Of a stretch of 20,592 nt of DNA, positions 15,086-20,592 are shown one piece after another. Every line of letters begins with the position of its first letter. Position 1 is the stretch's first letter. Below the pieces are notes generated by a model. It was not told the DNA's origin. It saw nothing but the letters and a program-made list of their open reading frames with translations, and made no database searches. Made by a program: the position numbers and the translations under genes. This stretch comes from a virus: positions 1 through 20,592 of the IMG/VR virus record IMGVR_UViG_3300030406_005982, one strand, 5' to 3'.

Positions 15086-16063
15086 ATGGCAATTGCACCA
15101 GTCAATAAGTTTCTATCTCTAGCTGTTCCTGTAGCACCAGGTGAGCAGAAACTTTATGAAGTACCAACTGGTACTACTGCAATTTTGCTGTACGCTCAAG
15201 TATCTAATGTAGGAATCGGACAGACCTATCCAACAGCAACTTTAATTCACAGAAGGGAATCAAGAAGCACAGGTAACAAAAGAGATATAAGAGTAATAAA
15301 AGATATAGAGATACCACCCAATGATGCAGCAATACTGATTGATGGTAGATTAGTTTTAGAAAAAACTCCACTTATTTTAGATAGATTATTTTTAAGAGGC
15401 GTTCAGTCAGGAGTAGGTACAATAACAAACGTTGTTTATCATGAGCCAACTGGTGTGGCTACAGTGACCACAATGAGTCCACATAATTTTAACGTAGGTG
15501 ATCCAATCACAATGAGTGGTATTGCGTTCACATGTTCAGGAAGCACTGGAATCACCACGACAATATTCCCAGATCCACAACAGTCTTACGTTGTTGATGA
15601 AATAACAAACGCAGTAGGAGTATCAAGAACATTCACTGCAGTAATTGGAAGTTCAAAAGGTTATCCACATTTTTATAATCCAGCAATACATTACTTTGTA
15701 CGTTCACGAAGTGAGGCAGTTACAGCGAATACAGGCACTAAATTTACACCATCTTTTGCTACATACACTGGTATAGATGGCGTATTAACTTTAACATTAG
15801 GTGCTAATCATGGATTGGTTGCTGGATCTAATACAGTGCAGATAGCAAACGATTCAATAATATTCACCTGTACACAGGATGGAAACTCAACAGAGCATGG
15901 ATATCCAAGAGCAACTGATCCTTACGCTGGTACAAACATAGCGATTGCATCTACCACTACCACAACGATAGCGGTCAATGTAGGTATTTCATCTGCAGGT
16001 GGATTAGTCGCACCACTTCAAATGGAATTCATAGCGAGTATCCTAGAAAATAGCACTGCATAA
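15086..16063 (+). CDS. Virion structural/fibre protein with two related beta modules
   Basis: I do not recognise a named family for this 325-residue protein, but its style is common in marine myovirus tail clusters. Residues about 1-110 form a beta-rich N-terminal domain (LSLAVPVAPGEQKLYEVPTG, then DIRVIKDIEIPPNDAAILID). Two modules follow at about 123-200 and 232-308. The first reads GVATVTTMSPHNFNVGDPIT...ITMSGIAFTCSGS, the second GVLTLTLGANHGLVAGSNTV...IIFTCTQDGN. Both place a His-(Asn/Gly)-(Phe/Leu) turn before a strand and end with a Phe-Thr-Cys strand; the second continues YPRATDPYAGTNIAIAS. GGAGG ends 13 bases upstream of the ATG, a long spacing. The stop overlaps the next start as TAATG. 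A tail fibre or fibre connector is the best guess. Confidence 0.78.
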   Translation: MAIAPVNKFLSLAVPVAPGEQKLYEVPTGTTAILLYAQVSNVGIGQTYPTATLIHRRESRSTGNKRDIRVIKDIEIPPNDAAILIDGRLVLEKTPLILDRLFLRGVQSGVGTITNVVYHEPTGVATVTTMSPHNFNVGDPITMSGIAFTCSGSTGITTTIFPDPQQSYVVDEITNAVGVSRTFTAVIGSSKGYPHFYNPAIHYFVRSRSEAVTANTGTKFTPSFATYTGIDGVLTLTLGANHGLVAGSNTVQIANDSIIFTCTQDGNSTEHGYPRATDPYAGTNIAIASTTTTTIAVNVGISSAGGLVAPLQMEFIASILENSTA

Positions 16064-17823
16064 TGGCTGAAGGAAGAAGATCAAGTCAGCGATATTTAAG
16101 TGGAAGATCCAAGATAATTGGATTTTCTGGTTTAAGTACAGATAGACATCTGTATGTTGAATCGGGGCAGGTTGAACCTAACTTAGGATTTCCTGGTGAA
16201 AAAAGTCTTCCAGTATCAAGCACATATTATAAATTAATAACTGTTCCCAACGGGAGCACATATGATCGTTACTGGCAGGAAGATACTCCTGCTACTTTAG
16301 TAAATGGTATTACAATATTTGATGAGGGTACATTAGTAGGTACAGCAAATACTGTATCAAAATTAAATTTTGTAGGAGCAGCAGTTACTGCTACAGCAAG
16401 TGGAACCATATCTACAATTACAGTTACACCTGTATCAATATCTACCGAAGCACCATTGGGAGCAAGGCATGGGGAACTATGGTGGGATAGTGATGAAGGT
16501 GAATTAAATGTTTATTATCAAGATGCTAACAGTGCTCAGTGGGTATTAGCAAATAGTGGAATTGGAACTACCACTGGAAGTGGTGGTGGCGGTGGAGGTG
16601 GAGGTGGTAGTGGTGGTGCTAATGTAACAGTATCATCAAATCCTCCAACAAGTCCTACTCCATCCAATGGTGATCTATGGTGGGATAGTGATATTGGTGA
16701 ACTCTACATTTACTATACTGACGGTGATAGTAATCAATGGGTTGAAACTTCAGGAGGAAGTGAAACTGTTACGATATCAGATAATGCCCCACCAAGTCCA
16801 AATGATGGAGATCTATGGTGGGAAAGTAATTCTGGATCTTTAAAAATATATTATAATGATGGTGATAGTCAGCAATGGGTTGATGCAAACGCTGGTGTTC
16901 TAAGCTCTATATCATCATTCATTGCATGGAGTAAAAATAGTGCTGGTATTCATACTACAGCAAATGTTGGAATAGGAACTACAAACGTTACTGCAGTTGA
17001 TTCTAGTAACACAGCGACTCTTGCGGTTGGAATTGTTACCGCACATAAGTTATATGGTGATGGGTCAAATTTGACTGGTGTTGGTGGAACAGTTGTAATA
17101 TCAACTTCTGCTCCTTCTAGTGCTGATGTCGGAGATTTGTGGTGGGATAGTGATGATGGCGATCTTTTGGTTTATTTTAATGATGGATCTGGTTCGCAGT
17201 GGGTAAGTACTAGTGCAGGTGCCACTGGAGCTCAAGGTGCACAGGGTGCTTCTGGAGGTGGTGGCGGTGGTGGATCTGGTGCTCAAGGAGCCGCTGGAGC
17301 TCAAGGTGCTGCTGGTGCTCAAGGTGCTACAGGTGCTGCTGGTGCTCAAGGAGCCGCTGGAGCTCAAGGTGCTGCTGGTGCTCAGGGTAACGTAGGTACG
17401 GGTGCTCAAGGAGCTGCTGGTGCTCAGGGTGCATCAGGATCAGCAGGATCAAGAACTACTGCAAATGCATCGACAGGATCAATCGCTAACAACGCTTCTG
17501 CAAACATATCAATCACAGCAGCAAAGGTATATGCATTACTTAAGATTCAAACATCAGCAGCTGCATGGGTAACTCTCTATACAGATGCATCTTCAAGAAC
17601 AGCAGACTCTTCTAGAAGTGAAACTACAGATCCAACACCTGGTTCTGGTGTGGTTGCTGAAGCGATTACAACTGGTGCTGCGACACAGATTATAACTCCA
17701 GGATTAATCGGTTGGAACAACGATGGAACACCTGCATCAACAATTTATGCAAAAGTTGTGAATAAAAGTGGAAGCACACAAGCAATTACAGTGACCGTAC
17801 ATTACCTACCTCTTGAGACCTAA
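16063..17823 (+). CDS. Modular collagen-like tail fibre protein
   Basis: The 586-residue protein is built from repeats. Four modules with a conserved GxLWWDSDxGxLxVYYxD...QWV core are centred near residues 141, 204, 252 and 361. A poly-Gly spacer (about 173-183) lies between the first two. Between the third and fourth is a GIHTTANVGIGTTNV segment similar to one in the 1088-residue fibre. Residues about 386-463 are collagen-like Gly-x-y triplets dominated by Gly-Ala-Gln-Gly, interrupted by a second poly-Gly run. The C-terminal 120 residues form a beta-rich head (ITAAKVYALLKIQTSAAAWV, ITVTVHYLPLET), probably the tip. Collagen-like shafts are trimeric in phage fibres. Direct overlap at both ends (TAATG) ties it to its neighbours. 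A receptor-binding fibre is likely. Confidence 0.85.
   Translation: MAEGRRSSQRYLSGRSKIIGFSGLSTDRHLYVESGQVEPNLGFPGEKSLPVSSTYYKLITVPNGSTYDRYWQEDTPATLVNGITIFDEGTLVGTANTVSKLNFVGAAVTATASGTISTITVTPVSISTEAPLGARHGELWWDSDEGELNVYYQDANSAQWVLANSGIGTTTGSGGGGGGGGGSGGANVTVSSNPPTSPTPSNGDLWWDSDIGELYIYYTDGDSNQWVETSGGSETVTISDNAPPSPNDGDLWWESNSGSLKIYYNDGDSQQWVDANAGVLSSISSFIAWSKNSAGIHTTANVGIGTTNVTAVDSSNTATLAVGIVTAHKLYGDGSNLTGVGGTVVISTSAPSSADVGDLWWDSDDGDLLVYFNDGSGSQWVSTSAGATGAQGAQGASGGGGGGGSGAQGAAGAQGAAGAQGATGAAGAQGAAGAQGAAGAQGNVGTGAQGAAGAQGASGSAGSRTTANASTGSIANNASANISITAAKVYALLKIQTSAAAWVTLYTDASSRTADSSRSETTDPTPGSGVVAEAITTGAATQIITPGLIGWNNDGTPASTIYAKVVNKSGSTQAITVTVHYLPLET
17278..17384 (+). repeat. Direct 44-bp repeat within the collagen-like segment
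   Basis: Bases 17278-17321 and 17341-17384 are identical over 44 bases, with 63 bases (21 codons) between the starts. Recombination between them would remove or add 21 codons in frame and change shaft length without breaking the gene. Confidence 0.85.
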
Positions 17824-19520
17824 TGGAGAAAGTATATATCGTAACTCTTAGTAATCGTGATGATCTTGAGGATTTTTATGCAGAGATGTCCTCAAAGGGA
17901 TTTAAGCTGCACATGAAGAGAACGATTAGTAGAAATACTAATTACTACATGACTCAGGAGCAAGCAGATGAATTAAAGAAAGACTCTAGGGTCATAGATG
18001 TTCAGGCAGCAGATGATTTTATAATAGAGAAACAAGCAATATACAATAATACGTCATATACTAAAAATGGTTATTTTTGGAAAGATGATTCACAGGGAGC
18101 ATTTACAATTCCAGCGACTGATTTTCAATGGGGACATACTCTTGCTGGATCCACATCACAAATAGGAAAGGGATCTTTTGGTAGAATAGCATCTGGAGGA
18201 ACCACAGAGAGAAAAACTACAAGTCTGGATGTATTTAATGATGGTAAACATGTTGATGTTGTGATTGTTGATGACCCAATGGCGTATGATAGTGAGGAGT
18301 GGTATAGTCCGTCAACTAATACAACAAGATTTGTTCAATATCAATGGTTTAACCAACTGAATACTTACGTGAGTTCTATTGATGATGATGGTATGACTTT
18401 ACCAACAGGAACAATTACATATAGACAAAATTCAGCGGAGTCAAACTATCATGGTCAGCATGTGGGGGGAACAGTTGCAGGACAACATTATGGTTGGGCA
18501 AGGGAAGCAAACATATACAATTTAGCAGTGACTGATAATTTTGCTTCAGGTCAATTTATTAGTGCGTATTTGATATATGATTACCTTCGTGCTTTTCATT
18601 TACATAAAGCAGTGAATCCAACAACTGGTCGTAGAAATCCAACAATTACAAATCATAGTTATGGTGGCGTTTTTTATTTTAATTCTGATCGAGAAGCACT
18701 ACCCTTTAGTGATTTAAACTCAGTTGTCTATAGAGGAACAACATATAACTCAGGAAATCCTGGTCCTTCAGGTTGGACACAATCTGGAGTTGAGGCAGAC
18801 TTTGGAGTAAGATTTGATATAACTTCAGGTCCTAGTCAAAGTGCAGCAATATCAGCAGATGTGCAAGATGCTATAGATGATGGTGTAGTTATAATTGGTG
18901 CTGCTGGAAATGATAACCTTGTAATTGCAGATCCAAGTAGTGCTGATTGGAATAATTATATAAATTGGGATTATGATGGATTTCCGAGATCACGATATTA
19001 TATGAGAGGTGCTTGGCCAAATTCTCCTGATAATGATTCAATCATAGTTGGTGCATTAAATAATACTCATAATTTTACAAGAGCTACTTTTACAATGCAC
19101 GGACCAGGTGTGGATGTGTTTGCACCAGGTCAAAGAATAGTATCTTGTTATGGTAGTGGTGGTTTGAATGATACAAAATATAGTGCTGGTTCTAGCAATA
19201 GATATTTTACTCTTAATGGAACTAGTATGGCTTCTCCTCAAGTAGCAGGAGTCGTTGCAACACTAGCGACTGCAAAATATAGATTTACTAATTCTGATGT
19301 AAAAGGATATTTACAGAGGCATAGTAAAGAAAATGATATGACTTTTGATTCGGGCACTGGATCTTACGATGATAACACCAGTCAACTAGGAAGTCCTAAC
19401 AAATATCTTTTATCAAAAAATCCAAGACCTACATCAGGCATGATTGAAGATGTGAAAGGTGAAAGAAAAACAAGTGGTATGACTTTCCCCCGTAGGTCAA
19501 CTTTGAACTACCAGCACTAA
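17823..19520 (+). CDS. Subtilisin-like serine protease (family S8) with propeptide-like N-terminus
   Basis: The 565-residue protein has the full subtilase set. Asp150 lies in VDVVIVDD, His210 in [12 protein letters not shown] (usual HGTHVAG), oxyanion Asn363 in IIGAAGND, and Ser468 in [12 protein letters not shown], in the canonical D-H-N-S order. Residues about 1-70 ([20 protein letters not shown] through [15 protein letters not shown]) resemble an I9-type propeptide, a chaperone and inhibitor removed on activation. Insertions lie between the catalytic blocks, and about 65 residues follow the protease core. No signal peptide or membrane segment is seen, so it acts in the infected cell or as part of the virion. 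It sits between two collagen-like fibre genes with a TAATG start overlap. Likely roles are cleavage of fibre proteins during maturation, or digestion of host surface proteins; both are inference. Confidence 0.92.
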
Positions 19521-19528: not shown

Positions 19529-20592
19529 ATGGCTCAGTTTAACTTCCCATCTAGTCCAAATAACGGTGATTCTTTTACACAGAATGGCGTAACTTTTCAG
19601 TGGGATGGTGAAGCGTGGAGAAGACAGGGAGTTGCAGGTGCTCAGGGTGCTTCAGGAACTAATGGTGCTCAGGGTGCTTCAGGAACTAATGGTGCTCAGG
19701 GTGCTTCAGGAACTAATGGTGCACAAGGATCTGCTGGTGCTCAAGGTGCACAAGGTGTCGCTGGAACTGCTGCATCACAAGGTGCTCAAGGTGCTGCTGG
19801 TGCTCAAGGGGATTCTGGATCTGCTGGTAGTACAGGTGCTCAGGGTGCTCAAGGTCATCAAGGACAGGCTGGAGCTGCTGCATCACAAGGTGCTCAAGGT
19901 GCAACAGGTGCTCAAGGTGCTCAAGGTCATCAAGGTGCTACAGGTTCAGGATCTACTGGTGCTCAGGGTGCTACAGGTGCAACAGGTGCTCAGGGTGCAA
20001 CAGGTTCTGGAGGATCTACAGGTGCTCAAGGTGCTACTGGTTCTACGGGAGCACAAGGTGCACAAGGACATCAAGGAAATACTGGATCGACAGGAGCACA
20101 AGGAGATGCTGGTTCAAGATCATATACTGTAACAAACAGTGGATCTGGTGCATATGTGATAGATGGATCTAATAATCCAACACTTAATTTATTGAGAGGG
20201 TTTACATATACATTTAATATTAATGCTTCAGGTCATCCTTTTTATATTAAAACAGCACAGACCACAGGCACAGGAAATCAATACACAAGTGGTGTGACTG
20301 GAAATGGAACACAATCAGGAACATTAACATTTGCTGTTCCTTATAACGCACCATCAACTTTATATTATATCTGTCAGTATCACAGTGCAATGAAAGGCAC
20401 TATATCAATTTCTGATGTAGGTCCGACTGGTGCTCAAGGTGCTGCTGGAGCACAGGGTGCATCTGGAACTAATGGTGCACAAGGTGCTCAAGGTCATCAG
20501 GGTGCTGGTGGTTCAGGAGGATCTACAGGTGCCCAAGGTGCTACAGGAGCACAAGGTGCTCAAGGTCATCAAGGTAATACAGGATCAGGTGG
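19529..20592 (+). CDS. Collagen-like tail fibre with embedded cupredoxin-like domain (partial, runs off the right edge)
   Basis: The frame is open for 354 codons from the ATG to the window end, so the C-terminus is missing. The N-terminus ([20 protein letters not shown], then [14 protein letters not shown]) is a short module of the kind starting many marine phage fibres. Residues about 36-198 are Gly-x-y triplets, mostly GAQG with GASGTNG, GHQG and AASQG variants. Residues about 199-300 form a beta domain with [20 protein letters not shown] and a closing [16 protein letters not shown]. His236, Cys282, His285 and Met288 fit the four type-1 copper ligands of cupredoxins. Collagen-like sequence then resumes to the edge. 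The gene follows the protease by 8 bases, without a Shine-Dalgarno sequence. It is probably a trimeric receptor-binding fibre; whether copper is bound is untested. Confidence 0.88.
19637..19717 (+). repeat. Perfect tandem repeat, three 27-bp units
   Basis: Three identical 27-bp units starting at 19637, 19664 and 19691 encode GAQGASGTN each. The unit is nine codons, so slippage keeps the reading frame. A fourth unit begins with GGTGC but diverges (GGTGCACAAG). Confidence 0.95.

Follow-up and report, generated by a model that had tools for sequence, protein, structure and literature searches.

An S8 subtilase gene behind a constant-ended tail fibre gene in a cyanophage-like virus fragment: a candidate exchangeable tip protease

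The window analysed here is the whole 20,592-base stretch of IMG/VR virus record IMGVR_UViG_3300030406_005982, the genes of which, compared with PHROGs, resemble those of T4-like cyanophages and include a baseplate hub, a hub-lysozyme and fibre genes. At the DNA level there were short matches only, to the Synechococcus phages ACG-2014e and ACG-2014i. Between two fibre genes lies an open reading frame (ORF) for a subtilase of peptidase family S8, and the fibre gene in front of it ends in a constant C-terminal domain (CTD). The subtilase is proposed below as a probable fibre-tip protease. The features of its gene are as follows.

17823..19520, + strand: S8 subtilase gene, 565 amino acids (aa), phrog_9158 family (ORF, Pfam, PHROGs)
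17823..18020, + strand: predicted N-terminal I9-propeptide-like domain, residues 1-66, beta-alpha-beta-beta-alpha-beta (models, PDB fold matches, Pfam I9 in relatives)
18057..19433, + strand: predicted subtilase catalytic domain, residues ~79-537 (VIA-align against solved subtilases)
18270..18272, + strand: catalytic Asp150 codon, context VVIVDDP, invariant in relatives
18450..18452, + strand: catalytic His210 codon, context HGQHVG, invariant in relatives
18909..18911, + strand: oxyanion Asn363 codon, context AAGND, invariant in relatives
19224..19226, + strand: catalytic Ser468 codon, context GTSMASP, invariant in relatives

The protease ORF begins with ATG at 17823 and runs through 565 codons to 19520 with no internal stop. 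The Pfam scan returned Peptidase_S8 (PF00082; E = 3.6e-23; score 82.7 bits, curated cut-off 21.8) and no other family at E ≤ 0.1. PHROGs matched the protein to phrog_9158 ('unknown function', E = 6.6e-210), and a sequence search of the PDB gave 124 sequences at E ≤ 0.01, the top ones being subtilases. The protein is an S8 subtilase, with a likeness far beyond chance. The TAA of the upstream fibre gene ends at 17823, which is also the first base of the protease ATG (a 1-base overlap), and 8 bases separate the protease stop from the downstream ATG at 19529. An earlier reading made from the letters of the window (the sequence-only reading) had described an intact subtilase with this spacing to its neighbours, and the ORF, the Pfam and PDB matches and the predicted fold agreed with it. 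It also set T4 gp21 apart from the S8 enzymes as unrelated to them; this fits general knowledge, and S8 was all that the Pfam scan of the window protease gave.

Asp150, His210, Asn363 and Ser468 were all found where the sequence-only reading had placed them, in the contexts expected of an S8 enzyme. When the protein was aligned to aqualysin with a hidden Markov model (HMM), the window His, Asn and Ser fell on the aqualysin catalytic motifs. A tblastn search with the window protease matched 41 of 50,697 phage records, all of them cyanophages or marine single-cell virus records, and query coverage was at least 80% in 28 of these. The neighbouring hub gene, taken for scale, matched 670 records (470 named Synechococcus, Cyanophage, Prochlorococcus or Marine), and the protease is therefore regarded as an accessory gene.

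The search of IMG/VR with the protease gave 80 loci. The initial alignment comprised 76 proteins, namely the window protease and 75 of the 80 loci, and left out L002 (identical) and the partial L073, L078, L079 and L080; all four catalytic residues were identical in it. When the set was enlarged to 164 and contigs ending before a given residue were set aside, Asp was present in 163/163, His in 163/163, Asn in 158/158 and Ser in 158/158. Among dereplicated relatives reaching the column the counts were 131/131, 132/132, 132/132 and 131/131, respectively, and only 18 of the 552 mapped columns of this family (132 rows including the window) were invariant, the four catalytic residues among them. 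Both the 132 rows used for conservation and the 130 pairs used for the mirror-tree test below pool loci from protease-led and CTD-led scans. The catalytic serine is also retained in distant cyanophage homologues (GTSAAAP in S-T4, GTSAASP in S-TIM54). The alignments argue for an enzyme in use and not a relic.

An AlphaFold2 model of the full-length protein, for which the window sequence was combined with 54 of the 80 relatives from IMG/VR, had a mean predicted local distance difference test score (pLDDT) of 88.7 and a predicted template modelling score of 0.81. Residues 79-537 of the model were superposed on Meiothermus keratinase, ProteinT and aqualysin with Z-scores of about 32.5 (maximum 32.6) and root-mean-square deviations of 2.4-2.6 over 271-277 residues. 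The low-confidence parts were a linker at residues 68-71, which is compatible with self-cleavage and release but is not proof of them, and most of the last 28 residues.

A separate model of residues 1-78 (pLDDT 81.6) gave subtilisin propeptide chains as its top five PDB fold matches (3whi_B, 3cnq_P, 3whi_A, 1spb_P and 1scj_B), with template modelling scores of 0.59-0.66 by query length and modest E-values of 0.003-0.019. Pfam Inhibitor_I9 (PF05922) matched 16 of 33 family members with a best E of 9e-4, the window copy not being among them. A PDB search with the N-terminal sequence profile returned chance-like matches only, T4 lysozyme among them and none with an E below 0.5, so the propeptide resemblance rests on the fold search and on the Pfam matches of some relatives. 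The I9 propeptide proposed in the sequence-only reading is thus supported as a predicted fold and as a family trait, and weakly by the sequence of the window copy itself.

The gene in front of the protease, and its junction with it, are described by three features.

16063..17823, + strand: upstream fibre gene, 586 aa, with a variable front and collagen-like and WWDSD-type repeats
17452..17820, + strand: CTD, constant C-terminal domain of ~122 aa, fibre residues 464-586, the regular S8 neighbour in relatives
17821..17825, + strand: TAATG stop/start overlap from fibre gene to protease gene, a near-constant junction in relatives

Wherever the upstream ORF of an S8 locus was readable (75 loci), it ended in the CTD and had a front that varied; 76 loci were examined, since L073, L078, L079 and L080 were left out of this count, and L028 had no upstream sequence. 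It was also present in 28/28 phage records with a full-length S8, at coordinates directly before the S8 match. In the 586-aa fibre, Pfam gave no match to the Peptidase_S74 auto-processing chaperone at E ≤ 0.1. The variable front of the fibre was seen to contain four LWWDSD...YY.D..S.QWV repeats, at residues 140, 206, 252 and 360.

IMG/VR was also scanned twice with the CTD alone, the query of scan 2 being led by a CTD without an S8 behind it. Of the 30 rows of the CTD alignment A4, 22 came from loci found by S8 in IMG/VR, one from the window and two from S8-carrying phage records. Each scan retained the best 80 of about 600 rows, with 15 loci in both, and the proportions that follow are therefore not those of a random sample; some contigs carry two locus names (e.g. 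L002 = L102). The ORF next to the CTD was S8 in 78/80 loci of scan 1 by the family HMM, and in 79/80 when L123 was added, where the S8 is of another subfamily (Pfam E = 4.6e-11). The corresponding counts in scan 2 were 57/80 by HMM and 59/80 with L123 and L225 added by Pfam. In the union of both scans, S8 lay directly behind the CTD in 123/145 loci. The distance from the stop of the CTD gene to the next start was -10 to +8 nucleotides, most commonly +2, in both scans (L130 excepted). The genes upstream of the distant S8 of P-SSM2, S-SCSM1 and S-T4 (L088, L089 and L091) share another end, TP-G-G-TYR by eye, which is perhaps a second type of dock, one that goes with the S8 clade.

Other genes can also occupy the position after the CTD. 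One non-S8 family filled this slot in 19 loci of scan 2, i.e. 19/145 in the union; the contig of L202 breaks off after 8 residues of the protein, and L202 was placed in this family on those. The family is found in named phages (Sf-CH1b, S-BM3, S-SCSM1 as ORF232, and AG-345-F15), and no clear Pfam domain was found in the members scanned, except a cupredoxin in L240. It is probably an alternative tip protein. Members (L182-L184, L206, L240 and S-SCSM1 ORF232, the last at L096:708-2678) were seen to start with a GNTGW-type motif. The slot of L239 (4371-6410) holds an alpha/beta-hydrolase resembling the esterase BD-FAE (E = 7.8e-17), that of L212 in scan 2 a fibre-like ORF, and that of S-CAM1 a diverged S8 (Pfam E = 3.5e-10) preceded by a cupredoxin-like segment.

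The S8 proteins themselves vary in what they carry. In 72 of the 132 dereplicated rows the protein stops no more than 40 residues past the S8 unit. The other 60 are longer, with extensions of 41-160 residues in 46, 161-320 in 2 and above 320 in 12. The extensions scanned contained plastocyanin-like cupredoxins, with several copies in L047, and a LamG lectin-like domain in L009. Those of L046, L068 and L071 contain a phrog_2576 segment and a cupredoxin-like end, and the phrog_2576 segments of L068 and L071 gave weak esterase or alpha/beta-hydrolase matches. The cupredoxin-like domain was also found in the gene that follows the protease in the window.

19529..20590, + strand: downstream fibre gene, open at the window end, with collagen-like repeats and a cupredoxin-like domain (Pfam, PHROGs)

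Residues 171-295 of this downstream fibre match the C-terminus of phrog_9158 by PHROGs. In relatives the cupredoxin-like domain forms the C-terminal end of the protease, in the window it belongs to the downstream fibre, and in some relatives to the upstream fibre. Movement of this kind between neighbouring genes fits an outer-surface setting shared by their products. In the window it lies at 20141-20419 (+ strand), where a plastocyanin-like ligand pattern (GHPFYI ...) was observed. A late-promoter-like CTAAATA at 19517 was given no weight, as it stands a few bases before the downstream start codon.

The link to the virion comes from a distant homologue, ORF228 of S-SCSM1 (1411 aa; phrog_9158 E = 3.9e-116, PF00082 E = 2.9e-26, LamG domains), which its depositors labelled 'baseplate wedge subunit (virion protein)'. 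In this phage the CTD is followed by a non-S8 protein, ORF232, which is likewise labelled 'virion protein'. For S-SCSM1, 45 virion proteins by mass spectrometry are reported in PMC9602691. The three non-structural virion proteins named there bear the label in the record, whereas several predicted structural genes (e.g. ORF17, ORF211 and ORF215) lack it. The label therefore seems to stand for detection. It is indirect evidence for the presence of an S8 protein of this kind in the virion. For S-CREM1, which has an annotated S8 peptidase, a virion proteome of 14 proteins is reported in PMC9964418.

Taken together, we consider that the window subtilase is probably an exchangeable, virion-borne tip protease that is docked on the upstream fibre and acts on cyanobacterial surface protein. 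Docking, activity, self-cleavage, substrate and moment of action are what we infer, and the steps would be the following. Fibre and protease would be made together from their overlapping genes. By analogy with gp38, which caps gp37, the CTD would serve as the dock for whatever protein the next gene encodes, which in the window is the protease. The protease would fold with its I9-type domain and then probably cleave itself between about residue 66 and residue 96. It would act outside the cell on a cyanobacterial surface protein, in order to reach or expose a receptor, or to let the phage escape from a dead end.

Several results weigh against this proposal. Coupling between CTD and S8 was weak in the mirror-tree test (130 dereplicated pairs): the partial r was 0.27 for CTD against catalytic domain with the N-domain fixed and 0.20 for CTD against linker with the catalytic domain fixed. 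Docking through the I9-like domain found no support, the partial r of CTD against N-domain being 0.045 with the catalytic domain fixed; all of these values are weak. Neither S8 nor any other tip gene follows the CTD in L130 of scan 1, and in S-CRES1 (L100:3837-5300; 74-kb Synechococcus phages) the CTD likewise has no tip gene behind it. The 'virion protein' label is an imperfect mirror of the mass spectrometry, since 48 coding sequences of the S-SCSM1 record bear it against 45 proteins reported. ORF228 is moreover a distant homologue, and the gene upstream of it ends in a different C-terminus and not in the CTD.

The sequence-only reading had offered both a virion-borne enzyme for host surface protein and fibre maturation by cleavage. 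In the latter case the S8 enzyme would cut the neighbouring fibre, most likely removing the CTD as a folding domain after trimerisation, and need not stay on the virion. Like C-terminal chaperone domains that are removed by cleavage, the CTD stays constant against a varying remainder of the fibre; the near inseparability of the fibre/S8 gene pair and the invariant active site would also suit such an enzyme. The slot, however, holds a non-protease in those 19 of 145 loci and an alpha/beta-hydrolase in one, and is empty in S-CRES1; lectin-like and cupredoxin domains on S8 copies would be superfluous for a maturation enzyme, and the distant homologue carries the virion label. We therefore regard maturation as unlikely, and the virion-borne protease as the better supported of the two, because S8 is fused to lectin-like, cupredoxin and hydrolase-like domains, because its slot also holds non-proteases and because of the label on the distant homologue.

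It is more doubtful still that the protease is an intracellular or lysis-phase enzyme, for example one for late degradation of host proteins, that sits in the fibre operon by chance. Position in a fibre operon is not by itself proof of location in the virion, and no signal peptide was noticed in the protease by eye (a predictor was not used), but its pairing with the fibre C-terminal domain is fixed across relatives, adhesin-like domains are fused to S8, and here too the virion label of the distant homologue stands in the way. Binding proteins can derive from enzymes, yet it is highly improbable that the protein only binds a receptor, with the subtilase fold as its scaffold and no meaningful catalysis, given that a catalytic residue was lost in none of the 131-132 dereplicated relatives and that all four stand among the few invariant columns.

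Beyond the window, we tentatively propose, with somewhat less than even confidence, that in phages of cyanobacteria, and in related aquatic phages of IMG/VR, the fibre tip is of a plug-in kind: various enzymes or adhesins are mounted on a constant domain at the fibre end, and a subtilase zymogen is the commonest of them in the sampled loci. Host recognition would then include specific surface proteolysis, and the I9 domain would silence the enzyme until the virion is outside the cell.

The virion-borne tip protease proposed for the window can be compared with three kinds of known systems. With the subtilases aqualysin, proteinase K and Meiothermus keratinase it shares the D-H-N-S order, PF00082, a fold of about 270 residues at Z ~31-33 and an I9-like N-domain. 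It differs from them in that no signal peptide is obvious by eye, that its inserted loops are large and its arginine-proline tail is conserved, and that it is encoded behind a constant-ended phage fibre gene. In S16-like T-even phages the adhesin gp38, a separate tip protein, caps gp37 (PMC6851490). The arrangement found here is alike, in that a tip gene, exchangeable between phages, immediately follows a fibre gene whose end is conserved and whose front varies; docking is inferred in our case. In the available part of PMC6851490, gp38 is a polyglycine adhesin and is not described as an enzyme, whereas the window protein is of S8 type; no gp38-type family was returned for it by Pfam or PHROGs, which gave S8-type families only. 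By analogy, the window protease may work like a gp38, though it is not one. The third kind is the virion-associated depolymerases, fibre or spike enzymes that degrade the host surface layer and are directed mainly at polysaccharides, a peptidase example being that of phage PhiNIT1, which acts on the poly-gamma-glutamate capsules of Bacillus (as described in parts of PMC5380687 and PMC6966330). The window protease would be a fibre-borne surface enzyme too, but a protein-directed one.

S8 genes in cyanophages are already on record. T4-GC518 is an S8 peptidase of P-HM1 and P-HM2 to which no role is assigned in the available part of PMC3037559; these were not matched by the window protease in the tblastn search of 50,697 phage records and may belong to a different S8 group. 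S8 is also annotated in P-SSM2 (PSSM2_297), S-H38, S-H9-1, S-WAM2, S-CREM1 and Sf-FR1, with the record label 'subtilisin-like serine protease' in S-H38, S-H9-1, S-WAM2 and Sf-FR1. Those of P-SSM2, S-H38, S-H9-1, S-WAM2 and S-CREM1 are relatives of the window protein, and their records say peptidase or hypothetical only, with the role unstated. No description of the CTD/S8 cassette or of tip-gene exchange was found in the available parts of the open-access literature on cyanophage, tail-fibre and virion proteases, supplements aside. Two papers in the cyanophage and subtilisin literature concern sheath proteins in the parts available (PMC12796325, PMC9004378), and T4 genes 34, 35 and 37 are listed among those absent from cyanomyoviruses in a part of a Virology Journal review (PMC2984593). 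Against that literature, the CTD/S8 pairing and tip-gene exchange appear to be new.

Little is known of the receptors and tip proteins of T4-like cyanophages, and the constant fibre-end domain offers a handle on the tip gene in many uncultured phages. Digestion of surface protein by some phages during adsorption becomes a testable question. If the enzyme is active on virions, protein digestion would join a field dominated by polysaccharide-degrading tail enzymes, and if the reading of the CTD as a plug-in mount holds, specific surface proteolysis would be the protein counterpart of the polysaccharide depolymerases.

One further feature lies at the end of the protease.

19425..19493, + strand: C-terminal tail with an R-x-x-S-G-x-x-F-P-R motif, residues 535-557, conserved in relatives and mostly at pLDDT <50

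P556 and R557 of this tail were identical in 118/118 rows reaching those columns among the dereplicated relatives. A stricter form of the motif was present in 93/132 S8 proteins, as against 0/75 upstream proteins, 0/73 downstream proteins and 2/28 other slot proteins. The arginine-proline tail motif may be considered as another candidate, besides the I9-like domain, for a part in docking or processing. The motif was seen to be doubled in some relatives.

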